A DNA stretch of 64,000 nucleotides, from NCBI GenBank assembly GCA_017510335.1, contig JAFWNM010000037.1, forward strand, positions 25,915 through 89,914. The letters run 5' to 3'. Below, one piece after another: positions 4,716-46,348 of this stretch. A program made the translations under genes and the position numbers. Each line of letters starts with the position of its first letter. The first letter of the stretch is position 1. The notes under the pieces are model-generated. The model had not been told where the DNA came from and made no database searches. It saw only the letters and a list, made by a program, of their open reading frames with translations. Origin of the DNA: Paracoccaceae bacterium. Its GTDB lineage: Bacteria > Pseudomonadota > Alphaproteobacteria > Rhodobacterales > Rhodobacteraceae.

Positions 4716-5483
4716 ATGCCGTTTCAACGTATTCAACCAGAAAAACTGTCGCATAGCGTGGAGCGCCAGATTGAATTGCTGTTGCTGCGCGGCATCCTGT
4801 GGCCCGGCGAACGCCTGCCATCAGAACGCGACCTGGCCGAGAAACTGGGCGTATCGCGCCCGTCACTGCGCGACGCGCTGGCCAAGCTGCAAGGGCGCGG
4901 ACTGCTGACCACACGCGCTGGCGCGGGCGTTTATGTAGAACAATTGCTGGATTCCGCGTTTTCCGACACGTTGGTTCAACTGTTCGCGGCACATGACGAA
5001 GCGCTGTTTGATTACATCAGCTTTCGCCGCGATCTGGAAGGCATGTCTGCAGAACGCGCCGCGCGCCATGGGTCCGACACGGATTTGCAGATTATCGACA
5101 CCATATTCAGAAAGATGGAAGCCGCGCACCAGAAACGCGACCCAAGCGAGGAAGCGCAACTTGATGCGGAATTCCACCTGTCCATTGTCGAAGCGTCCCA
5201 CAACATCATCATGCTGCACATGATGCGCGCCATGTTCAATTTGTTGCATGAGGGGGTGTTCTATAACCGCCAGATCATCTTCCGCAAACCCGCATTGCGC
5301 GATGATCTGCTAAACCAGCACAAACAGATAAATGACGCCCTGCAAGCCCGCGATGCCCCGCGCGCCAAACAGGCCGCCGAAGCCCATCTGAACTTCGTAG
5401 AACAAATCATGACAGACATGAAGCGCAGCCAGAAGAACGAGCAAATCGCCCGATTGCGGTTTGAACATGCGCAAACCAGATAG
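4716..5483 (+). CDS. GntR-family regulator, FadR/PdhR subfamily (FCD domain)
   Basis: A 255-residue transcription factor. Residues about 8-75 are the winged HTH (PGERLPSERDLAEKLGVSRP), and residues about 95-235 the all-helical FCD effector domain with the usual metal/acid-binding residues (DAEFHLSIVEASHN, HKQINDALQARD). The pattern is closest by eye to the PdhR/LldR group, which sense pyruvate or lactate, but the effector is not provable here. An excellent ribosome site (GCAGGAGG) precedes the start. It stands alone, facing the ATP synthase operon tail to tail, with a shared terminator between them. Confidence 0.88.
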   Translation: MPFQRIQPEKLSHSVERQIELLLLRGILWPGERLPSERDLAEKLGVSRPSLRDALAKLQGRGLLTTRAGAGVYVEQLLDSAFSDTLVQLFAAHDEALFDYISFRRDLEGMSAERAARHGSDTDLQIIDTIFRKMEAAHQKRDPSEEAQLDAEFHLSIVEASHNIIMLHMMRAMFNLLHEGVFYNRQIIFRKPALRDDLLNQHKQINDALQARDAPRAKQAAEAHLNFVEQIMTDMKRSQKNEQIARLRFEHAQTR

Positions 5484-37858: not shown

Positions 37859-38202
37859 ATGCTAAGCTTTTTTCTGCCGGTATTTCTTGTCTTTCTGTTT
37901 CTGGGCCTGCCTGTATTCTTCGCGCTTCTGGCCGCGCCGGGACTGCTGCTGTGGGCGGCGGGAATGGAACGCGATATCACGCTGCTATATCGCAATGTCT
38001 ATACCGGGATGGACAGTTTCCCGCTGATGGCGATACCGTTCTTCATGCTGGCGGGGGAATTGATGAACCGTTCCGGCATCACCTTGCGGCTGGTGGAATT
38101 TTCACAGGCGCTGGTCGGGCATCTGCGGGGCGGGCTGGCGCATGTCAATGTGTTGTCGTCCATGCTGTTTGCCGGGCTGTCGGGGTCTGCGGTGGCCGAT
38201 GT
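37859..38202 (+). pseudogene. TRAP transporter large permease (DctM), 5' part, interrupted by the Mu-like element
   Basis: The first 114 codons of a DctM carrier are intact, with signatures FPLMAIPFFMLAGELMNRSGIT and SSMLFAGLSGSAVADV. After GATGT at 38198-38202 the frame enters the mobile element and stops six codons later. The rest continues at 46349. Joining 37859-38202 to 46349-47294 gives 1290 bases in one frame, a 429-residue protein of normal DctM length. The permease is thus inactivated by a clean insertion rather than by decay. Confidence 0.93.
38198..38202 (+). repeat. Target-site duplication, left copy (GATGT)
   Basis: GATGT directly precedes the element. The right copy at 46344 reads AATGT, so four of five bases match. 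Five-base duplication is the Mu-family rule, and the frame of DctM is restored only when one copy is removed. Confidence 0.7.
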
Positions 38203-38218
38203 TGACGCGCGACTTATC

Positions 38219-38231
38219 GTTTGATACCGGA
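38219..38231 (+). repeat. Putative transposase-binding site, left end site 1
   Basis: GTTTGATACCGGA, 16 bases inside the left end. The match with site 2 extends three more bases (CGC). The third copy is inverted at the right end. Confidence 0.7.
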
Positions 38232-38252
38232 CGCGGCCCGATTTTACCTATG

Positions 38253-38265
38253 GTTTGATACCGGA
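38253..38265 (+). repeat. Putative transposase-binding site, left end site 2
   Basis: A second GTTTGATACCGGA in the same orientation, 34 bases after the first. The rest of the gap up to the repressor gene (38266-38442) shows no gene. Confidence 0.7.
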
Positions 38266-38442
38266 CGCACGGCAGATTGCGGCTAAGGTATTGTAATATT
38301 TTGGGAAGTGTCGGAGGCAGGAGGGGCCGCAATCGGCGGCTCCTCGTAGACGCGCGCAAGCCGTTGATTTTTCTTCACTTCCTGCCCGCGCAGGTGCGCT
38401 GATCGGAGATTGCGGCCACTTTGGCGAAGCGATTGACGAAAC

Positions 38443-38901
38443 TCAATCGCCGGACTTCTCACAGTCAAAAAATTCATCGTGCACGATCACGCTGAACACG
38501 CTCTGAACGCTGGAGAGTTGAAAGCTTTCTGTGGCGTCTTTCACCTTCTTTTCGACATCTTCTAACGCCTGTGGATATTCACGGTAGAAGAAGAAGGGTA
38601 AGTTCCACCCAAATTCTAGAAATGCGCGCTCGTTTTGAGTGACTGCGGACAAATTACGCATACAGCGCATCATCGCGAGCGAGAAAGCGGCAACTTCTTC
38701 GTCTGTTTTGAAATCTGGTGAAGGAATGCCCAAGCGTTCATTCTTCATCACTGCGCCGACGTAGCGGGTCGGCACAGAGCCACGGTTACGCCAAGCTGAA
38801 ATCGCAGTGCTCCCGATACCCAGCGCCTGAGCCAGTTCCTTATCAGAAGACGCGCGATACAGCGTCTTGAGGGCATCGATCTGTTCTTCGACGGTGTCCA
38901 T
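38443..38901 (-). CDS. Phage CI-like repressor of the Mu-like element
   Basis: A 152-residue protein with an N-terminal CI-type helix-turn-helix at residues about 12-45 (SSDKELAQALGIGSTAISAWRNRGSVP), as in the Phage_CI_repr family, then a helical C-terminal half without a visible peptidase site (no Ser-Lys pair can be named), so SOS cleavage is not evident. It is divergent from the early operon and separated from it by an operator-like palindrome over the early promoter, the position of Mu c. It probably keeps transposition silent. Confidence 0.82.
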   Translation of the reverse strand: MDTVEEQIDALKTLYRASSDKELAQALGIGSTAISAWRNRGSVPTRYVGAVMKNERLGIPSPDFKTDEEVAAFSLAMMRCMRNLSAVTQNERAFLEFGWNLPFFFYREYPQALEDVEKKVKDATESFQLSSVQSVFSVIVHDEFFDCEKSGD

Positions 38902-38910
38902 GTTTCCCCC

Positions 38911-38950
38911 TTGACGTTCACTTTGGCAATTTGTATGTTACAAAGTGAAC
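38911..38950 (+). promoter_or_regulatory. Early promoter with overlapping operator palindrome
   Basis: TTGACG (38911-38916) and TATGTT (38934-38939) are spaced 17 bases apart, a good sigma-70 promoter reading into ner-A-B. A perfect inverted repeat, GTTCACTTTG (38916-38925) and CAAAGTGAAC (38941-38950), covers it, so a protein bound to both arms would block the promoter. The repressor gene on the other side is the obvious candidate. Confidence 0.75.
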
Positions 38951-39003
38951 CACAGCATGAATATGTGATATCTGTGTGGAAATATGCGGGAAATCCCTCA
39001 AGA

Positions 39004-39204
39004 ATGCAATCACCGTCGCCGGAAATGCTCTGCCAAGTTCGATCAGACCTTGTAAGGCGCGGAACATCGCTCAAGGCGTTCTGCGAAGATCAAGGCTTTT
39101 CCCGCGTAGCGGTCACTCAGGCGCTAAGCGGAGCGCGCACCGGCCCGGCATATCGTACCCTACTCAGCCGCTTTATGACGTGTATGCAAGAGGCTGACAA
39201 ATGA
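39004..39204 (+). CDS. Ner-like small DNA-binding regulator
   Basis: A 66-residue protein with a single helix-turn-helix (SLKAFCEDQGFSRVAVTQALSGA near residues 22-44). Position, size and fold match Ner of Mu-like phages, which turns down early transcription after infection. The ATG at 39004 is preferred over earlier frames that would include promoter sequence; the ribosome site is weak (CGGG). It overlaps the start of transposase A by four bases. Confidence 0.72.
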   Translation: MQSPSPEMLCQVRSDLVRRGTSLKAFCEDQGFSRVAVTQALSGARTGPAYRTLLSRFMTCMQEADK

Positions 39205-41240
39205 CGTTGCCCCTTGTTTCGTCGGAGGAATTTGCGAGTGCGGCGAGCATCGGCTTGCGCGCCGCGCAACTTGCCCTTCGAAACGCCGCACAGGGCAAGC
39301 TGTGGCGCGGCGAACCCCTGCCCGTTGTGCCTCTTGAAGGCCAGCGGGGCGGGGCGGCGGGTTGCGCCTATGCGCTTGATCTATCGCAGTGTTCCCCTGC
39401 GTTTCTGGCGAAGTATCCGTTCCTGCGGGCACTGCGGGACGAAGCTGTCGCGCCCGCTCCGCGTGTGCCGGTTGGCGTTCTGGAACCGTGGCGGGTCAAG
39501 GAACAACATCGGCGGCGCGACATCCTGCGCCCTGCCATGGGCACCGCGCCGAAGTCGCGGGAACGGGGCAAGGTGCTGCGGGACATCGCGGCGGCGCATG
39601 GGGTGGCGTTCAAGACGCTGCAACGCTGGCTTCTGGACTATGACAACAAGGGGCTTGCGGGTTTGCTGCCCAAGCCGAACGGCAACCCCGGCAAGCGCCG
39701 CGTTCTGGTCACGCGGGCATGGGATCGCGGGATCGATCTGGACGATGACCAGAAGCGCGATGTTGCCGACTTGATCGCCAAGCGCGGGCGCAGCATGGCG
39801 GCGAACGACGGCACGCCGGATCGCAAAATCATTGAGCTGTGCGAAAATGTCTTGCGCGATGAATGCCTTGCGCGGGGATCGAAGATGCACCCGCGCGTTC
39901 TGGCGTCGGTCTGCAAGCTGAACACAAAATGGTGCGCCGGGATCGATACCGACCAGGCGCGGCTCGACTATCTGCGCAAGAACGATCACAAGGTGTGGCA
40001 GGACAAATGCGTCAACCGCGTCCGGCGCGCGCTGCATCATCAACCCATGGGCCTGCTGATCGGCGATGTTCACTATGTGGACATGCTGGTCACGGAAGCC
40101 ATGCACTCGGGCCGATCCGACCTGATCCACGCGGGCGCGGCGGCACAGAGTGCGGGCCGCGAAACAATTCGGGTGCGGCTGATCGCATGGATGGACGCGG
40201 CAAGCCTGTTTGCATGGGTGACGCCGGTCTTCCTAGCGAAGGGTCAGGGCATCACGCAAGCGGATGTGGCGCAGTCGCTGGCACAGGTCGCGTTTTGCCC
40301 GCACGGGGGCATCCCGAACGAATTCTACCTGGACAACGGAGGGGAGTATAAAGCCCTGCCGGATAGCATGACACAGCTTGCGAACCTTGCTGACATGGAA
40401 TTCGGCATGACGCTGGCGAAGCCCTATTCGCCCACGTCGAAGGGGGATATCGAAGGCTTTTTCAACATCCTTGAAGGCATCTTGAAGGGTCTTCCCGGCT
40501 GGATCGGCGGGGACCGGACGAACAAGAAGTCGGAGAACAAGGGAAAGGTGGTGCAGCCCTACACCAAGGGCATTGCGGCGCTGGAAGCCGATATCGCATC
40601 AGCGGTCATGATCTATAACGACCGTCGCCAGAGCGGGCGGCTCAAGGGTCTGTCGCCGCTCGACATGCTGAACCGCAAGATCAAGGAAACCGGGTTCGAA
40701 GCCCGCGTGCCCAGCGAAGAAGCGTTCGACCTGATTTTCAGCCGGTCTGAGCGGCGCACCATCCGTCAGAACGCCATTCACTATGACAAGCGGCAGTGGC
40801 ACACGCCCGCGCTTGATGATCTGCCGATGGGCGAAGAAGTCGAAATCCGCGTGCCGCTGCGCAAGGGTGCCGATCGCATCTTCGTGCGCCGGGGCAAGAC
40901 GGATCTTGGCTGGGCCGAACCCATGCGGGTGTTTGAGCACGGCGACCGTGACGGCGCGCGCTACCAGGCGCAGCTTGAGAAGGGGCGCAACGCTGCGGTG
41001 GACCGGATCGCCGCGACCATCGATCCGAACGTGTCCACCTTCGAATACCAGAAGGCGGCAGTGCGCCGCACCGCGCCGGATGCGAACCCGCCGCAGTCCT
41101 GGACAACCGGCATCGACAAGACCCGCGACCGCGCGACCGTCGCCGAGATCGAGGCGGACGAGGACGCGGCGCGGCGGGCAGAAATCAATGAGATACTTCG
41201 GGGCTATGGTGCTGAAGTCGAGCGAAGGGCCGATGGGTGA
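39201..41240 (+). CDS. Mu-type transposase A (DDE recombinase)
   Basis: A 679-residue transposase of the MuA family (Mu A is 663). The N-terminal half carries DNA-binding HTH segments (about residues 105-160, KVLRDIAAAHGVAFKTLQRW). The integrase-like core follows, with candidate catalytic Asp 289 (LLIGDVHYVD), Asp 378 (FYLDNGGEYKA) and Glu 418 (SKGDIEGFF). The Mu-transposase C-terminal beta-barrel region lies at about 520-590 (LDDLPMGEEVEIRVPLRK). All core residues are present, so the enzyme may be active. The C-terminal tail (DRATVAEIEADEDAARRAE) would contact ATPase B by analogy with MuA. Confidence 0.93.
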   Translation: MTLPLVSSEEFASAASIGLRAAQLALRNAAQGKLWRGEPLPVVPLEGQRGGAAGCAYALDLSQCSPAFLAKYPFLRALRDEAVAPAPRVPVGVLEPWRVKEQHRRRDILRPAMGTAPKSRERGKVLRDIAAAHGVAFKTLQRWLLDYDNKGLAGLLPKPNGNPGKRRVLVTRAWDRGIDLDDDQKRDVADLIAKRGRSMAANDGTPDRKIIELCENVLRDECLARGSKMHPRVLASVCKLNTKWCAGIDTDQARLDYLRKNDHKVWQDKCVNRVRRALHHQPMGLLIGDVHYVDMLVTEAMHSGRSDLIHAGAAAQSAGRETIRVRLIAWMDAASLFAWVTPVFLAKGQGITQADVAQSLAQVAFCPHGGIPNEFYLDNGGEYKALPDSMTQLANLADMEFGMTLAKPYSPTSKGDIEGFFNILEGILKGLPGWIGGDRTNKKSENKGKVVQPYTKGIAALEADIASAVMIYNDRRQSGRLKGLSPLDMLNRKIKETGFEARVPSEEAFDLIFSRSERRTIRQNAIHYDKRQWHTPALDDLPMGEEVEIRVPLRKGADRIFVRRGKTDLGWAEPMRVFEHGDRDGARYQAQLEKGRNAAVDRIAATIDPNVSTFEYQKAAVRRTAPDANPPQSWTTGIDKTRDRATVAEIEADEDAARRAEINEILRGYGAEVERRADG

Positions 41241-41298
41241 GGACGTGCAATCAACGCCCACCGGCCCTTCAAATTGCAACCCTGTCAGAGGATTAGAA

Positions 41299-42078
41299 AT
41301 GACAGAGCTACCACACATTCCTACCATCGAAACTGCCGTGTGCGCAACAATGCGCGGCGTGATCGGTGACGTGCTCGACGGCGCGGGACTTGCCGTCATG
41401 CGCGGGCCGGTCGGCATCGGCAAAAGTTATGCCCTGCGCCAGGTCATCGGCGAGTTTGAAGAGGACGGCGCTAGGGTCACATACCTTGCCGCAACGGGCG
41501 CGGTGCAGGGCAAGATTGCCGAGTTCCTGCGGGCACTTCACGGGCGCGAAGGTTTGTCCAGCGCCGAAGGTCTCGAACTGGCATTCGACATGCTGGCGGG
41601 CTATCCGTTCCGGTCTTATGGCCCGCGTGCGGCGCTGATTGTGGACGAAGCCCAAGACCTTGCCGCGCCGATCATCGCCCAGCTTCGCGGGCTTTGGGAT
41701 CGCGGCGAACTGGCCCGGCTTGGCGACCCATGGTGCCCCGCCTTTGGGCTTGTCATGGTAGGGAACGACCAGTTCCTTGGTAACGGCACCCGGCAGGACC
41801 GGGTGAACCTGAAGCCCTTGTGGGACCGCATGACGCACAACATCCGGTTGCCGCGGCCCAGCAAGGAGGAACACGCGGCGTTCGCCCGAGCGCTTTTTCC
41901 GGCCGATGACGCGGACAAGATGCGCGCCATTGTTCAAGCGTTCGGCGAAGACCAGGGGAGCCTGCGCGCGGCGCACAAGGCCGCACGGCAGGCATACATT
42001 CGCGCCGGCCAGAAGGGGCAGGACGTAAACGCGGATCACTTAGCATTCGTAATCCGCATGATGGGAGGGGGCAAGTAA
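41299..42078 (+). CDS. Mu-type transposition ATPase B
   Basis: A 259-residue AAA+ ATPase. Walker A is MRGPVGIGKSYALRQ (near residues 35-48) and Walker B is AALIVDEAQDL (111-121), with a sensor region GLVMVGNDQFLG. It would select target DNA and activate transposase A. The ATG at 41299 has AGAGG seven bases upstream; an alternative ATG at 41233 overlaps the A gene. The stop overlaps the next start by one base (TAATG). Confidence 0.9.
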   Translation: MTELPHIPTIETAVCATMRGVIGDVLDGAGLAVMRGPVGIGKSYALRQVIGEFEEDGARVTYLAATGAVQGKIAEFLRALHGREGLSSAEGLELAFDMLAGYPFRSYGPRAALIVDEAQDLAAPIIAQLRGLWDRGELARLGDPWCPAFGLVMVGNDQFLGNGTRQDRVNLKPLWDRMTHNIRLPRPSKEEHAAFARALFPADDADKMRAIVQAFGEDQGSLRAAHKAARQAYIRAGQKGQDVNADHLAFVIRMMGGGK

Positions 42079-42386
42079 TGAAGACGGTTTATGTGAACCT
42101 GAAGGAAGGTGAAGCGGTTCTTGTGATTGATGGGACGCCTGTCGAATTCTCGGAACTCAAGCGGGCTATGGCCGATCTGGAAGCTATGCTTGAAGCGCAA
42201 GGGGATGCGCGCGCCTTGGCCGCGTTCCGGGCTATCGGCGAAATGATCGCCCGCGCCCGCCCGGTCATCTATGAGCCGCCCAACCCTGACAGCCCTGAAG
42301 AGCAACGGCGCAAGAACACCGAACGGGCGAACGCGGGCTTGCTGCGCGCATTCGGTCCCAAGCCGAACGGGGAGTTTGACGCATGA
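42078..42386 (+). CDS. Hypothetical protein of the Mu-like early region
   Basis: 102 residues, not recognised. The N-terminus forms beta strands (KTVYVNLKEGEAVLVIDGTPVEF), followed by a long helix (SELKRAMADLEAMLEAQGDARALAAFRAIGEM) and a charged disordered tail. It is coupled to gene B by one base and to the next gene by four bases, so it is expressed with them. In Mu, the region between B and gemA holds similar small accessory genes. Confidence 0.65.
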   Translation: MKTVYVNLKEGEAVLVIDGTPVEFSELKRAMADLEAMLEAQGDARALAAFRAIGEMIARARPVIYEPPNPDSPEEQRRKNTERANAGLLRAFGPKPNGEFDA

Positions 42387-42769
42387 GCCAGATCGAGACG
42401 GATCACGAGTTCAAGACGCGCATGGCGGCTGAAGGGCGAGCAATCTACGTTCCGGGCAAGACCGATGAACAGATCGCGGCAGAGCAAGAGCGCAAGGCCG
42501 CGCCCAAGCCGGTGACGCTGCACCTGTCTGAAAACGACCTGACGGGCATCATGCAGGCTTTGCCGCAAACCTTCGATCTTGTCAGCGACTTGGCGCGCGC
42601 CTGCGAATATCTGGGCGGTTCCGGGCTTGCGGATGACGTTGCATCCGACCTCGCCCCGGTCCTGCGGCTGTTTGCGCGTGCCTGCCAAGCGGCAGAAGCG
42701 CAGGAACTGGAAAGCCTGTTCAAACTGGAAACCCAGCTGCGCGATGCGGTTGCAGAGGAAGGAGCCTGA
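42383..42769 (+). CDS. Hypothetical protein of the Mu-like early region
   Basis: 128 residues, not recognised, predicted mostly helical, with a charged N-terminal part (KTDEQIAAEQERKAAPKP) and a C-terminal helical bundle (LARACEYLGGSGLADDVASDL). Spacing by a four-base overlap and one intervening base ties it to its neighbours in the early operon. Confidence 0.62.
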   Translation: MSQIETDHEFKTRMAAEGRAIYVPGKTDEQIAAEQERKAAPKPVTLHLSENDLTGIMQALPQTFDLVSDLARACEYLGGSGLADDVASDLAPVLRLFARACQAAEAQELESLFKLETQLRDAVAEEGA

Positions 42770-42770
42770 C

Positions 42771-43181
42771 ATGCCGTTGAGCAAAAGACAAACCCGCCTG
42801 ATCCATGTGGCCAAGACCAAGCTCGGGATCGAAGACGGTCTGTATCGATCCATTCTGGCCAACCTGTGCGGCGTGACCAGTTCGATCGAACTTGATCAGG
42901 CGGGGTTCGAGTTGCTGATGGGATTTTTTGAATGGCGTGGGTTCAAGCCCATGACGCGCAACGGGGCGAACTACGGCCCGCGCCCCGGCATGGCCAGCTA
43001 TGCGCAGCTTGAACTGATCCGGGCGCTTTGGTTCGAATACAGTCAAGGCCGCGCGGGTGAGGGTGAGTTGAACAAATGGCTTGAACGCTGTTTCAAACTG
43101 ACCAGCCTGCGGTTTCTGGACAAGGCCACGGCCCCCAAGGTCATCACGGCGCTGAAAGCCATGAAAACCCGCGCGGCCTGA
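42771..43181 (+). CDS. gemA: GemA-like protein (DUF1018, Mu Gp16 family)
   Basis: A 136-residue protein matching the GemA/Gp16 family: KRQTRLIHVAKTKLGIEDGLYRSILANLCGVTSS at the start, a FFEWRGFKP block, RPGMASYAQLELIRALWFE, and the C-terminal SLRFLDKATAPKVITAL. In Mu, GemA alters host DNA topology and gene expression during the early phase. It closes the early gene run; 247 bases then separate it from the Mor-like gene. Confidence 0.85.
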   Translation: MPLSKRQTRLIHVAKTKLGIEDGLYRSILANLCGVTSSIELDQAGFELLMGFFEWRGFKPMTRNGANYGPRPGMASYAQLELIRALWFEYSQGRAGEGELNKWLERCFKLTSLRFLDKATAPKVITALKAMKTRAA

Positions 43182-43378
43182 TCTGGCCAGCAGGGCATGA
43201 AACCGGGGCGCGGCGCTGGCCGCGCCCCTTTCTTTTGGCTTCGCCCGTCCTGCCCCCTTTAATGGGTGTTTAACGGCGCGATTTCAGCCAAGGGGCAACC
43301 CTCATTCACAGCTTGCGCCGCGAAATGGCTTTCTGCTACGGTTCTGGGGTGCATGGTTTCGGGGAAAATACCCGACCC

Positions 43379-43428
43379 TTGACAGGTGTCTAGGTTGGAC
43401 AAGTGACAAGGCTGACTAAGGTCAGACC
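43379..43428 (+). promoter_or_regulatory. Possible middle promoter ahead of the Mor-like gene
   Basis: The 247-base gap 43182-43428 has no gene. It contains TTGACA (43379-43384) followed by TGTC-taggttg-GACA, a short inverted repeat, and a ribosome site TAAGGT near 43418. No clear -10 hexamer is spaced correctly, which would fit an activated promoter, but the signal is weak. Confidence 0.3.
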
Positions 43429-43872
43429 ATGACCAGCGAACACCTTTCAGATTTGCCCTATCCGACCTGCGCGCAATGCACGGGTATTGGAGTATATGCC
43501 GGTCCGAAGTGGCAGAACGACCTTGAAGACGATCTTGGATTTGACGTTCTGAAAGCCCTGATCTTGGCGCACGGCGGGCGCGAATTGCACGTCAAGCACA
43601 CGCCCGAACCCGCGACCGATGCGCTTGGACAAGCGAAAGTTTGGATGTCGGAACGGTTTGGCGCGGGCAAGATTATTGTTCACTTTGGCCCCTTGGCCCG
43701 AAAGAACCGCGTGGCATGGCTGATCTACACCATGCTGCGCGACGGGGCGTCTTTGGCACAGATCGCAGAGGCGGCAAACACCACAATCCGAACAGTCGGG
43801 CGTCACAAGAAGCGCCTGCAAGACATGGGCGCGCTTCCCGCGCCTGCCCCTTCAAACACCCGGAGAACCTGA
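43429..43872 (+). CDS. Mor-like transcription activator
   Basis: A 147-residue protein similar in layout to the Mor family: a central helical/strand region (AKVWMSERFGAGKIIVHFGPLARKN) and a C-terminal HTH (LRDGASLAQIAEAANTTIRTVGRHKKRLQDMG). Two N-terminal Cys (CAQC, residues 12-15) are unusual. In Mu, Mor turns on middle and hence late genes; here it stands just before the head genes, four bases from the start of T. Confidence 0.7.
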   Translation: MTSEHLSDLPYPTCAQCTGIGVYAGPKWQNDLEDDLGFDVLKALILAHGGRELHVKHTPEPATDALGQAKVWMSERFGAGKIIVHFGPLARKNRVAWLIYTMLRDGASLAQIAEAANTTIRTVGRHKKRLQDMGALPAPAPSNTRRT

Positions 43873-43875
43873 GCA

Positions 43876-44808
43876 ATGATTATCAACGCAGCCACCCTTG
43901 ACGCCATATTCAAAGGCTTCAAGACCCTCTACACAACGGCGGTTCTGCAAGCCCCGTCGCAGGCCCCTGAAGTGTCAATGACCGTGACCAGCGCCGCGCG
44001 CGATGAAACCTATAACTGGCTTGGCCAGTTTCCCCAGATGCGCGAATGGATTGGCGACGAACGTGTGATCCGCAAACTTGAAGCGCATGGCTTCACCATC
44101 ACGAACCGCAAGTTCGAAAGCACAATTTCGGTCAGCCGCGACGATATTTCCGATGATCGCCTTGGCGTCTTCGCGCCCATGATCCAGAGCATGGGCTATG
44201 AGGCTGCAATCCATCCCGATCATGTGGTGTTCGGTCTGCTGGCCGCTGGCTTCAATACCCTGTGCTATGATGGTCAGAACTTCTTCGACACAGAACACCC
44301 GGTGCGCGATGAAGACGGCCCCGTCACCATTGACGGTGACAAATACCGGCTTGTCAGCAACATGGATGTTCCTGAAGAAAACCCCGGCCCTGCATGGTTC
44401 CTGCTGGACACGTCGCGCCCGATCAAGCCGATCATCTGGCAGGAACGCGAGAAATACGAGTTTCAGAGCGTCACAAGCCCAAGTGACCACTCTGTCTTCA
44501 TGACGGACAAGTATCTCTATGGCGTGCGCGCCCGCGTGAATGCCGGTTTCGGCCTGTGGCAGATGGCCTATGCCAGCCGCGCGCCGCTGAACAAGGCGAA
44601 CTATGAAGCCGCGCGCACGGCCATGCAGCGCCAAGTCTTCGACAAGGGCCGCCCGCTGGGCATCAAGCCCACGGTTCTTGTCGTGCCCCCGGAACTGGAA
44701 GGCGCGGCCATGCGGCTATTGAACACCGAACATGTGGACGGTGGCAATTCGAACGAATGGAAAGGCACGGCGAAACCGCTTGTCACGCCCTTCCTGACTG
44801 CGGCCTGA
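43876..44808 (+). CDS. Mu-like major head subunit (gpT family)
   Basis: A 310-residue capsid protein of the Mu gpT family. It is recognisable from MIINAATLDAIFKGFKT at the start, TYNWLGQFPQMREWIGD, ESTISVSRDDISDDRLGVFAPM, VVFGLLAAGFNTLCYDGQNFF and the C-terminal PTVLVVPPELEGAAMRLLN. It is full length (Mu gpT is 305). In Mu, T lies after I; here it lies before it. With no portal or tail genes nearby, any particle it forms would need outside help. Confidence 0.9.
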   Translation: MIINAATLDAIFKGFKTLYTTAVLQAPSQAPEVSMTVTSAARDETYNWLGQFPQMREWIGDERVIRKLEAHGFTITNRKFESTISVSRDDISDDRLGVFAPMIQSMGYEAAIHPDHVVFGLLAAGFNTLCYDGQNFFDTEHPVRDEDGPVTIDGDKYRLVSNMDVPEENPGPAWFLLDTSRPIKPIIWQEREKYEFQSVTSPSDHSVFMTDKYLYGVRARVNAGFGLWQMAYASRAPLNKANYEAARTAMQRQVFDKGRPLGIKPTVLVVPPELEGAAMRLLNTEHVDGGNSNEWKGTAKPLVTPFLTAA

Positions 44809-44810
44809 TC

Positions 44811-45737
44811 ATGACCCTTGTTCACGCCACATGCAGCGAATTGCCGGGGGGAACTGTGCCTGACACGGTGCAGCTACTGCCCCCCGGCAGCTTCAAGGCC
44901 CGCGATGGCCGCGCCTTCCGGATCGATAATCCGCAAGCGCTGATCGCGCGCTTCAGGGCCGACGCGGTGGACAAGCCGATTGACTACGAGCATCAAGAGG
45001 ATGACCCGGCGCGGCGCGGTAATGGGCCTGTCCCGGCTGCGGGCTGGATCAAGTCGATCCTGTTCGATGCGCGCCAAGGCGTCTTGGCGCATGTGGAGTG
45101 GACGGCCCGTGCGCGCGAGTTGATTGCCAACCGTGAATACCGCTTCCTGTCGCCCGTGTTCCTGCATGATGCGAATGGACGGATCACCAAGCTTATGGGC
45201 GCGTCCCTTGTCCATAGGCCAGCCCTACACATCAAGGCACTTGCCAGCGAACAGGAGCACCCCATGCCCGACAACCCGAACCCCTTTGCCCGGATCGCCA
45301 AGGCGCTTGATCTGCCCGAAGACGCGACCGAAGACGCCATTATTGCCGCTCTGGGCGAACGCCTTGCCACGGCTTCAGAAGTCACGCCCGACCCGGCGAA
45401 GTTCGTGCCGATTGAGGCCGTGCGCGAATTGATGGCCGAACGTGTCACCAGCAAGGCCACGAACTCGGAAACCCAAGCCCGCGCCCGCGTGCAGGACGCC
45501 ATGCGCGAAGGCCACATCACCCCGGCGATGCAGGATTGGGCGGTTGCCCTGTGCAGGCAAGACCCGGAAAGCTTTGAAAGCTTCGTCCAGTCCAGCGCCG
45601 CCCCTTTCGGTCACCTGTTCAAAGGCCCCAGTGCCAACCGCGCCATACCCGCGCACGGTGCAACGGCTGGCAGCGTCGAAGAACAGGCCATCTGCGCGCA
45701 ACTGGGGATCGATCCGGGCGAATTGGCAAAGGGCTGA
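44811..45737 (+). CDS. Mu-like I protein (head protease/scaffold)
   Basis: A 308-residue protein of the Mu gpI family, whose N-terminal half is the maturation protease (VQLLPPGSFKARDGRAF, DYEHQEDDPARRGNGPVPAAGWIKSI, YRFLSPVFLHDANGRITKLMGASLVHRPAL) and whose C-terminal half acts as scaffold. HRPAL, then an internal Met (near residue 150) preceded by GAGCACCC, may allow internal initiation of a separate scaffold, as Mu Z arises from I. The start at 44811 lies two bases after the T stop. Confidence 0.88.
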   Translation: MTLVHATCSELPGGTVPDTVQLLPPGSFKARDGRAFRIDNPQALIARFRADAVDKPIDYEHQEDDPARRGNGPVPAAGWIKSILFDARQGVLAHVEWTARARELIANREYRFLSPVFLHDANGRITKLMGASLVHRPALHIKALASEQEHPMPDNPNPFARIAKALDLPEDATEDAIIAALGERLATASEVTPDPAKFVPIEAVRELMAERVTSKATNSETQARARVQDAMREGHITPAMQDWAVALCRQDPESFESFVQSSAAPFGHLFKGPSANRAIPAHGATAGSVEEQAICAQLGIDPGELAKG

Positions 45738-45741
45738 TCCG

Positions 45742-45855
45742 ATGAGGAACACCGGCCAGAGCGTCGGGCACGCCCGCGCCGGTTTACTGGCCCCGGACGG
45801 TGAAATCGGGGCCAGCAAGGCGGGGGCGTGGCTGCGCGCTCCCGCCTACACCTGA
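45742..45855 (+). CDS. Small frame of the Mu-like element
   Basis: A 37-residue frame (starting MRNTGQSVGHARAGLLAPDG) four bases after the I gene and 12 before the next gene. No family is recognised. Support is position and compact spacing only; GGGC upstream is a poor ribosome site. Confidence 0.3.
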   Translation: MRNTGQSVGHARAGLLAPDGEIGASKAGAWLRAPAYT

Positions 45856-45867
45856 AAGGAAGGCACG

Positions 45868-46257
45868 ATGGCAGAACACGACACGCCCAAAGATGCAGAG
45901 CGGATCGCAACCGCCCAAGGTATCCTTGCCATGTGCCGGGAAGTCAGGGCGGATGTTGCGCGGATCGAACAGGAAACCGAAGCGCTTCTGACAAGTCTTG
46001 AAGCTGGCCATGAAACCCCTGTTGAAGCCCCCGTTCAACGCCCTGTTCAACCGTCGCAGCACTTGCGCGAACACCGGCCCGGACGGCCCAAGAAGCTGGC
46101 CGCTGACCCTGAATTGCGCGCCTTCGTGGAAGCCCGCTTCAACCGGATGACCTTCGAACAGATCGCCGATGAAGTCGCCCAAAACTTCCCGCCAGAACGG
46201 CGCGTTGCCAAGTCTGCTATTCACGCATGGTGGCACGCTCACTATAAGCGGAAATAA
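45868..46257 (+). CDS. HTH protein at the end of the Mu-like element (DUF3486-like?)
   Basis: A 129-residue protein. The N-terminal half is a charged helix, the middle a Pro-rich linker (PVEAPVQRPVQPSQH), and the C-terminal 55 residues a DNA-binding-like unit starting RPGRPKKLAADPELRAFV and including FEQIADEVAQNF and VAKSAIHAWWHAHYKRK. The closing SAIHAW resembles the SALHRY segment of Mu gp27-like small terminase proteins (DUF3486), but the match is short. GAAAGGAAGG is a good ribosome site. It ends 38 bases before the right-end binding site. Confidence 0.6.
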   Translation: MAEHDTPKDAERIATAQGILAMCREVRADVARIEQETEALLTSLEAGHETPVEAPVQRPVQPSQHLREHRPGRPKKLAADPELRAFVEARFNRMTFEQIADEVAQNFPPERRVAKSAIHAWWHAHYKRK

Positions 46258-46295
46258 CAAACCGATCCGGGGTAGGCTCCGGACCCCCGTCCACT

Positions 46296-46308
46296 TCCGG
46301 TATCAAAC
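46296..46308 (-). repeat. Putative transposase-binding site, right end
   Basis: TCCGGTATCAAAC on the plus strand is the exact inverse complement of the two left-end sites, 35 bases inside the right end. A degenerate second site (CGTTTTAATACTG on the minus strand) lies nearer the terminus. Confidence 0.7.
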
Positions 46309-46343
46309 CCTAAGTAACAGTATTAAAACGTAGGTTACAGCAC

Positions 46344-46348
46344 AATGT
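46344..46348 (+). repeat. Target-site duplication, right copy (AATGT)
   Basis: This copy reads AATGT against GATGT at the left. Either the first base mutated or the right end of the element is one base longer than given. Confidence 0.6.

Follow-up and report, generated by a model that had tools for sequence, protein, structure and literature searches.

The 64,000-nucleotide stretch analyzed here (hereafter the window; contig JAFWNM010000037.1 of Paracoccaceae bacterium assembly GCA_017510335.1, positions 25,915 to 89,914) carries a complete Mu-type element of 8142 bp, at window positions 38203-46344, that sits in dctM, a tripartite ATP-independent periplasmic (TRAP) transporter gene. The element has genes for transposition, for the major capsid protein T, and for the head protease I; as is the case for satellites, it is a mobile element that lacks genes needed to make particles. 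Both the sequence and the predicted fold of its capsid protein are intact, and we found the distinct lineage to which this protein belongs solely in elements without portal or motor genes. The element is probably a naturally occurring phage satellite that transposes, in effect a wild "mini-Mu", and we infer from its genes that it is packaged and that it depends on a helper. In the best reading available to us, the satellite would move itself, bring a capsid protein, a scaffold/protease, and a packaging-specificity protein, and borrow portal, motor, tail, and lysis functions.

Boundaries and Gene Content of the Element

Both junctions are fixed by an empty site, an uninterrupted dctM in a relative (genome G003, locus L231; G and L numbers denote genomes and loci throughout). 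The left flank agrees with L231 through ...GATGT and the right flank from ATGT..., which gives a target duplication of 4 exact bp, ATGT, or of 5 bp with one mismatch. Three exact copies of the motif GTTTGATACCGGA are present in the window, two near the left end of the element and one, inverted, near the right end. When up to two mismatches are allowed, the window holds 6 matches versus 0.90 expected, and 6 was reached by 0 of 100 shuffles. A complete relative of the element, L210 (7951 bp), has TG...CA ends and a perfect 5-bp duplication. The features of the element, with strand and best family matches (E values), are as follows.

38203..46344, + strand: whole element, TG...CA, 8142 bp, from end motifs and junctions compared with uninterrupted dctM
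38198..38202, no strand: host dctM GATGT bordering the left end (ATGT being the exact 4-base target duplication), from the uninterrupted gene in L231
46345..46348, no strand: host ATGT at the right junction, from the same comparison
38219..38231, + strand: end motif GTTTGATACCGGA, left copy 1, putative transposase site, from a motif search; same motif type at the ends of L019, L210, and L213
38253..38265, + strand: end motif GTTTGATACCGGA, left copy 2, from the motif search
46296..46308, - strand: end motif GTTTGATACCGGA, right copy (inverted), from the motif search
38443..38901, - strand: c-type repressor, 152 residues; Phage_CI_repr PF07022, 7.9e-6
39004..39204, + strand: Ner-like DNA-binding protein; phrog_925, 1.8e-5
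39201..41240, + strand: transposase A, 679 residues; HTH_28, 1.8e-6; Mu-transpos_C, 0.0012; rve, 0.051
41299..42078, + strand: transposition ATPase B (a longer frame opens at 41233); AAA_22, 5.3e-9; phrog_296 (DNA transposition protein), 1.7e-19
42078..42386, + strand: x1, 102 residues, no family over the cut-off in Pfam or PHROG; 64% relative in L210
42383..42769, + strand: x2, 128 residues, no family match in Pfam or PHROG; relatives in L210, L212, L213, and L214
42771..43181, + strand: GemA; PF06252, 7.7e-22
43429..43872, + strand: Mor-like late activator; phrog_836 (Mor/C), 1.4e-7
43876..44808, + strand: T, major capsid protein, 310 residues, full length; PF10124, 1.7e-121 over the whole profile
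44811..45737, + strand: I, head protease; PF10123, 1.4e-66; phrog_328 (head maturation protease), 1.3e-79
45264..45737, + strand: possible internal scaffold start (Mu Z-like) inside I, ATG with AGGAG upstream
45868..46257, + strand: x3, long helix and C-terminal helix-turn-helix in the predicted fold, related by profile comparisons to the Mu-like small terminase (gp27)

The 11 genes, in the order c, ner, A, B, x1, x2, gemA, mor, T, I, x3, cover 89% of the 8142 bp and so leave no room for a portal or large terminase; Pfam and PHROG family searches found no portal, large terminase, tail, or lysis gene in the 8.1-kb element. A DDE transposase and ATPase B are present in the c-ner-A-B order. Of these, A is the weaker family match, with HTH_28 over its cut-off and Mu-transpos_C under, and it has no match at 1e-5 among 50,697 phage records. 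Foldseek aligns the predicted fold of T, along its length, with the capsid proteins of JBD30 (E 2.2e-32) and Mu (E 5.1e-28); the mean predicted local distance difference test (pLDDT) score of the model is 80.7, and residues 47-75 are modelled poorly. A preliminary description of this DNA had reported intact c, ner, A, B, gemA, mor, T, and I genes in 8.1 kb, with no portal, tail, or lysis genes, and both statements are borne out by the family searches and by the fraction of the element already taken up by genes. Its two ends also stand, except that the comparison with L231 places the true right end one base further, at 46344.

A Clade of Compact Elements

As judged from sequence comparisons, the window element belongs to an old, widespread lineage of small elements and is not a one-off deletion. 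Relatives of T were collected from named genomes (the best 80 of 228) and from IMG/VR (the best 80 of 598 matches). Around many of the closest relatives, the c-ner-A-B-gemA-mor-T-I-x3 set stands between chromosomal genes. Marker profiles for portal (phrog_113), large terminase (TerL), small terminase (phrog_426), sheath (phrog_23), and tape measure were built from the full-size Mu-like prophage in the genome of the window, and the portal profile matched 48 loci, none of them among the closest T relatives. A tree of 170 gpT proteins from genome and IMG/VR loci, made with a quick method and Shimodaira-Hasegawa-like approximate likelihood-ratio test (SH-aLRT) support only, as for our other trees, groups 37 rows, including the window, in one clade (SH-aLRT 98), and none of these has a portal or TerL within 12 kb of T. 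Two rows, L022 and L211, are the same contig, so that the clade comprises 36 distinct loci. The shortened T of L016 falls under the length limit of this tree and grouped in the 29-row clade of the first tree.

Near T, the 36 loci hold a Mor-type gene in every case, I in 30, A in 24, B in 23, and GemA in 24. Portal, TerL, gp30, sheath, and the head-closure marker were found by profile in none of the 36, and in 21 of them the available sequence extends more than 6 kb on both sides of T. Tape-measure genes are present in 11 loci by profile and in 13 when the Pfam matches of L047 and L135 are added; a gene of the tail-completion (gpG) type occurs in 4, a tyrosine integrase in 2, and a true Gp27 small terminase in 1 (L036). 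For a 143-residue family with the working name "decor", whose role is a guess, no Pfam match was found. T lies upstream of I in 28 of the 30 loci with I. Outside the clade, more than 6.5 kb upstream of T is available for 94 of 133 rows, and a portal or TerL is found in 86 of these 94; the remaining eight are L055, L160, L162, L164, L180, L181, L186, and L227.

Two further samples place the clade among host genomes. The class-wide one, drawn after the pattern was noticed, covered 387 alphaproteobacterial genomes, of which 10 besides that of the window hold gpT, at 11 loci. None of the 11 falls in the clade; 10 have a portal, with I upstream of T in those 10, and the eleventh is a 3.4 kb contig. 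In the order sample, gpT is present in 33 of 292 genomes, with 11 carriers of compact elements by context and score, three of which (G224, G239, and G301) have nothing but decayed copies. Among the best 80 IMG/VR matches, the clade members are L130 and L135 only, and the T relatives in phage and plasmid collections are all below 60% identity.

Several members depart from the common layout. L036 (Methylococcus) and L051 (Rhizobium) have a tyrosine integrase and no A or B, accompanied in the former by the true Gp27 small terminase (the two genes at L036:2730-3785 and 4975-5409) and in the latter by an endolysin (the two genes at L051:15018-16052 and 4861-5475). In L042:34-14028, a mor-T-I-tape-measure module lies shortly downstream of apparent prophage tail genes, labelled by eye, and in some compact elements a single extra morphogenesis gene of the neck/tail-completion type adjoins I (L215:10458-11081, L030:3251-3679). 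SOS or replication genes adjoin 6 of the 21 loci with listed flanks (L024, L047, L037, L034, L210, and L215), strikingly often, although no proper null was computed for this count. These genes are lexA beside L024 and L047, recA beside L037, dnaE beside L034 and L210, and, at L215, a Y-family polymerase gene (IMS domain) whose start lies 36 bp after a GAACN7GAAC word; lexA also lies within a few kb of L135, which is additional to the 21. We give no weight to LexA control of the window element itself: GAACN7GAAC-type words recur in the 64 kb (4 exact, 6 including looser forms), and the word at 38494 lies inside c.

Relation of x3 to Small Terminases

T and I had been described as kept "without any packaging gene". 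This does not hold, because x3 (45868-46257) is, by profile comparison, a relative of small terminases. Its match to the PHROG family of small terminases is below threshold (0.086), and the relation emerges from models built from compact elements only, which were searched at E up to 10 against 26,463 reading frames, 69 of them of the small-terminase family. With a 15-row model, one frame was matched outside the clade, a small terminase (1.7e-4). A 19-row model matched six frames outside the clade, and all six are small terminases (best 1.4e-8); its extra rows were taken from an earlier x3 profile search whose profile also held four small-terminase frames of full-size phages. Profile against profile, x3 and the small terminases score 92.8% (E 4.1e-7), and five control families (A, B, Mor, GemA, and integrase) reach at most 0.9% against the x3 profile. 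A relative of x3 stands near T at 24 of the 36 clade loci with the 15-row model and at 29 with the 19-row model. The predicted fold is a long helix followed by a helix-turn-helix. We hold with moderate confidence that x3 is a DNA-binding protein that would confer packaging specificity.

Selection, Exchange, and Copies

Pairwise Nei-Gojobori ratios of nonsynonymous to synonymous substitution rates (dN/dS) are 0.022-0.277 for T in eight measurable pairs (a ninth, L214/L022, is saturated) and 0.189-0.293 for I in five pairs. One pair each gave 0.346 for x3, 0.181 for mor, 0.278 for gemA, 0.101 for B, and 0.309 for A. Single values are rough, because dS exceeds 1 in five of the eight T pairs, and no dN/dS value approaches 1. 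On these sequence comparisons T and I are under purifying selection.

The elements also appear to exchange genes. The window B (41299-42078) is 95% identical to B of L029, an element of Phycocomes (L029:7087-7866), whereas the two elements share 43% identity in A and about 57% in T, which points to a recent exchange of the B gene. Traces of further copies lie at contig ends of the window's genome (loci L095, L096, and L244), the insides of those copies being absent from the assembly: contigs C11:1-138 and C17:1-138 start with the same right end, 82% like that of the window element over 99 bp and then divergent, and contig C27 starts with a left end like that of L213. Rhizobium lemnae holds two compact loci, L024 and L026, and G224 (L218-L221) holds at least four decayed compact copies, mutually 89-98% identical, with T broken.

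Helper Phages and a Proposed Mechanism

In two genomes, that of the window (G000) and G304, a compact element occurs together with a full-size Mu-like prophage that has portal, TerL, and sheath genes. Portal_Mu is present in 12 of 38 compact-element genomes, compared with none of 14 control genomes. Of the 292 genomes in the order sample, 31 have it above the cut-off, 4 of the 11 carriers versus 27 of the 281 noncarriers (p 0.020). The capsid gene of L033 (Rhizobium rhizogenes, L033:6881-7768) is a mosaic: residues 1-215 belong to the compact type, and the remaining 81 (216-296) are closest to the portal-bearing full-size phages L207 and L088, so that compact and full-size capsid genes have met in one cell. 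The use of a helper has only indirect support, namely, the relation of x3 to small terminases, a modest co-occurrence with full-size prophages, and this one mosaic capsid gene.

We propose that the element would replicate by transposition in cells where a full-size Mu-like phage is active, and that its Mor-like activator would drive late expression of T, I, and x3 while the helper is active. T and the protease/scaffold product of I could then form the element's own heads, and x3 could point the large terminase of the helper at element DNA. The portal, neck, tail, and lysis functions of the helper would complete and release particles carrying the element. These particles would have either smaller heads or normal headfuls with flanking host DNA, as in laboratory mini-Mu, and the tape-measure genes of some kin would fit a role in setting particle dimensions.

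A number of observations weigh against the satellite reading. Neither particles nor induction nor transfer of the element were observed. The likeness of x3 to small terminases is limited to a helix-turn-helix part of about 50 residues, which is C-terminal in x3 and near the N-terminus in gp27, and the reciprocal search from small terminases to x3 is weak (L040 0.013, L215 0.3). The predicted x3 fold gave 23 matches to the PDB at E up to 10 and none at 0.001 or below, so the small-terminase reading rests on sequence profiles. No Mu-type portal is found in 26 of the 38 compact-element genomes; a resident helper is therefore not the rule, and an infecting helper or another type of helper would be needed. 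The co-occurrence p value becomes 0.072 without the window's genome and 0.22 when the partial match of G215 is left out as well. An exact 5-bp repeat between TG and CA was found in one of eight scanned elements, which is L210 and not the window element. A mixture-model tree put the portal-bearing rows L088 and L207 inside the clade, beside the mosaic L033; with L033 removed, the 35 rows form one clade (support 96, and again 98 in a tree of 179). Finally, we know of no published system that requires, in this form, a helper portal fitted to a foreign capsid.

A wider reading seems to us possible, and we put it forward tentatively. The compact elements may be an old lineage of self-transposing satellites that carry the virion genes of form and specificity (capsid protein, protease/scaffold, in many a tape measure, and the small-terminase relative) and none of the shared machinery (portal, motor, sheath, and baseplate). 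Such elements would redesign the particle of the helper from inside, using its portals and motors for particles whose heads are smaller and whose tails may have a fixed length. Their capsid lineage would have stood apart from the one in full-size phages for long enough to reach several orders, and would be mostly missed by virus finders.

Alternative Explanations

The alternative that survives best, and which we still consider unlikely, is an interference device in which T, I, and the tape-measure proteins poison the assembly of Mu-like phages, whether incoming or co-resident, protecting the host and the element, which moves only within its genome, by transposition. Capsid and tape-measure proteins are assembly nuclei that could misassemble with helper parts, and the presence of several copies in one genome indicates spread within genomes. 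However, the conserved protease, the small-terminase relative, and, in many, the scaffold-like start exceed what poisoning needs, and the presence of the elements in several orders implies transfer between cells.

An internal deletion, by which a full-size Mu-like phage would have been stripped of its central and right-hand regions, leaving T and I as remnants of a decaying prophage, was one of two branches left open by the preliminary description. The other was a reduced element whose persistence is favored by selection, for instance as a satellite. The satellite branch fits the data better, and we reject the deletion as very improbable on the strength of the clade, the gene order, and dN/dS. 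The compact set is common to 36 distinct loci; its gene order thus recurs and is not a unique case, and the purifying selection on T and I is the opposite of what had been named as counting against the preliminary description. Neither relaxed selection nor unique irregular deletions were encountered. The T-before-I order of the compact loci is reversed in 10 of the 11 full-size loci (the 10 where I was found), an arrangement that a simple deletion does not give, and no full-size phage with this type of T was found in the samples. Decay does occur within the lineage, as L063 (T interrupted), L016 (T fragment), and the broken copies in G224 attest.

A self-sufficient shell transposon, with a capsid, no portal, its own exit route, and no helper, would account for the 26 carrier genomes that lack a Mu-type portal. 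The 8.1 kb, however, contain no lysis, motor, portal, or tail gene, and in the double-stranded DNA capsids of this fold known to us the DNA enters through a portal, which makes this explanation less probable still. Least credible is an assembly artifact, a repeat collapse or chimera joining the two ends of a longer phage in a draft genome of 43 contigs, three of whose contig ends carry related-element ends; we reject it because long contigs from other genomes show the same layout flanked by host genes (L215, 3.6 Mb; L017 of Roseobacter sp. HKCCD6576-2, genome G349, 1.09 Mb; L213, 1.17 Mb) and because the junctions fit the empty site.

Comparison with Known Systems

With Mu and Mu-like phages the window element has in common the genes c, ner, A, B, gemA, mor, T, and I, TG...CA termini marked by recurring motifs, a target duplication (of 4 exact bp in its own case), and, by prediction, the capsid fold of Mu and JBD30. 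Mu-like phages are about 36-40 kb, whereas the element has 8.1 kb and no portal, TerL, gp30, sheath, tail, or lysis genes; unlike theirs, its T precedes I, its capsid falls in a separate clade, and its transposase is without a match in phage records. Laboratory mini-Mu elements are short, man-made Mu derivatives without capsid genes that are packaged with helper Mu. The window element, in contrast, is natural and part of a diverse lineage.

Capsid-forming phage-inducible chromosomal islands (cf-PICIs) integrate by a site-specific integrase. They resemble the window element in being small, in having their own capsid protein and head protease, and in the presumed use of helper tails. The window element has A and B instead of an integrase, and a tyrosine integrase is present only in L036 and L051 of the 36 loci. 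The cf-PICIs are described as encoding a portal, connectors, and both terminase subunits and as needing tails only (PMC10690885), so that their class does not include the window element: a portal or TerL is found in 0 of the 36 clade loci, and Mu-type transposition in 24.

Phage-inducible chromosomal islands (PICIs), Staphylococcus aureus pathogenicity islands (SaPIs), and P4 integrate by site-specific recombinases. They remodel helper capsids via scaffold-type proteins; the element brings a capsid protein instead. Their likeness to the satellite proposed here lies in what they do to the helper: some SaPIs are described as redirecting helper packaging by a small terminase of their own, and PICIs/SaPIs and P4 as changing capsid size (PMC10690885). 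In the AH14a/AH14b helper-satellite pair of Pseudomonas, AH14b is described as P4-like, with an integrase and a primase and no structural genes (PMC4936722). It resembles the window element in being small and mobilized by a larger prophage, the latter inferred in our case.

The list of satellite types in a review comprises P4-like elements, PICIs, cfPICIs, phage-inducible chromosomal island-like elements (PLE), phage-inducible chromosomal minimalist islands (PICMI), virion-encapsidated integrative mobile elements (VEIME), and tycheposons, and has no Mu-type entry (PMC11389934). The word "satellite" is absent from the main text of a survey of Rhodobacteraceae prophages (PMC8224337). Within the open-licence papers covered by our literature search, we recognized no account of elements of this kind. 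The satellite reading would also make candidates for live mobile elements of the small Mu-like "remnants" in alphaproteobacterial genomes. Should the satellite reading be correct, the helper portal must work in a foreign shell, which would offer a direct test of portal-capsid recognition. Known tailed-phage satellites remodel the capsids of their helpers or, in the case of cf-PICIs, bring a whole head and packaging set; the compact elements would then represent a third division of labor, in which transposition is combined with a capsid protein and a small-terminase relative, and portal and motor are left to the helper.

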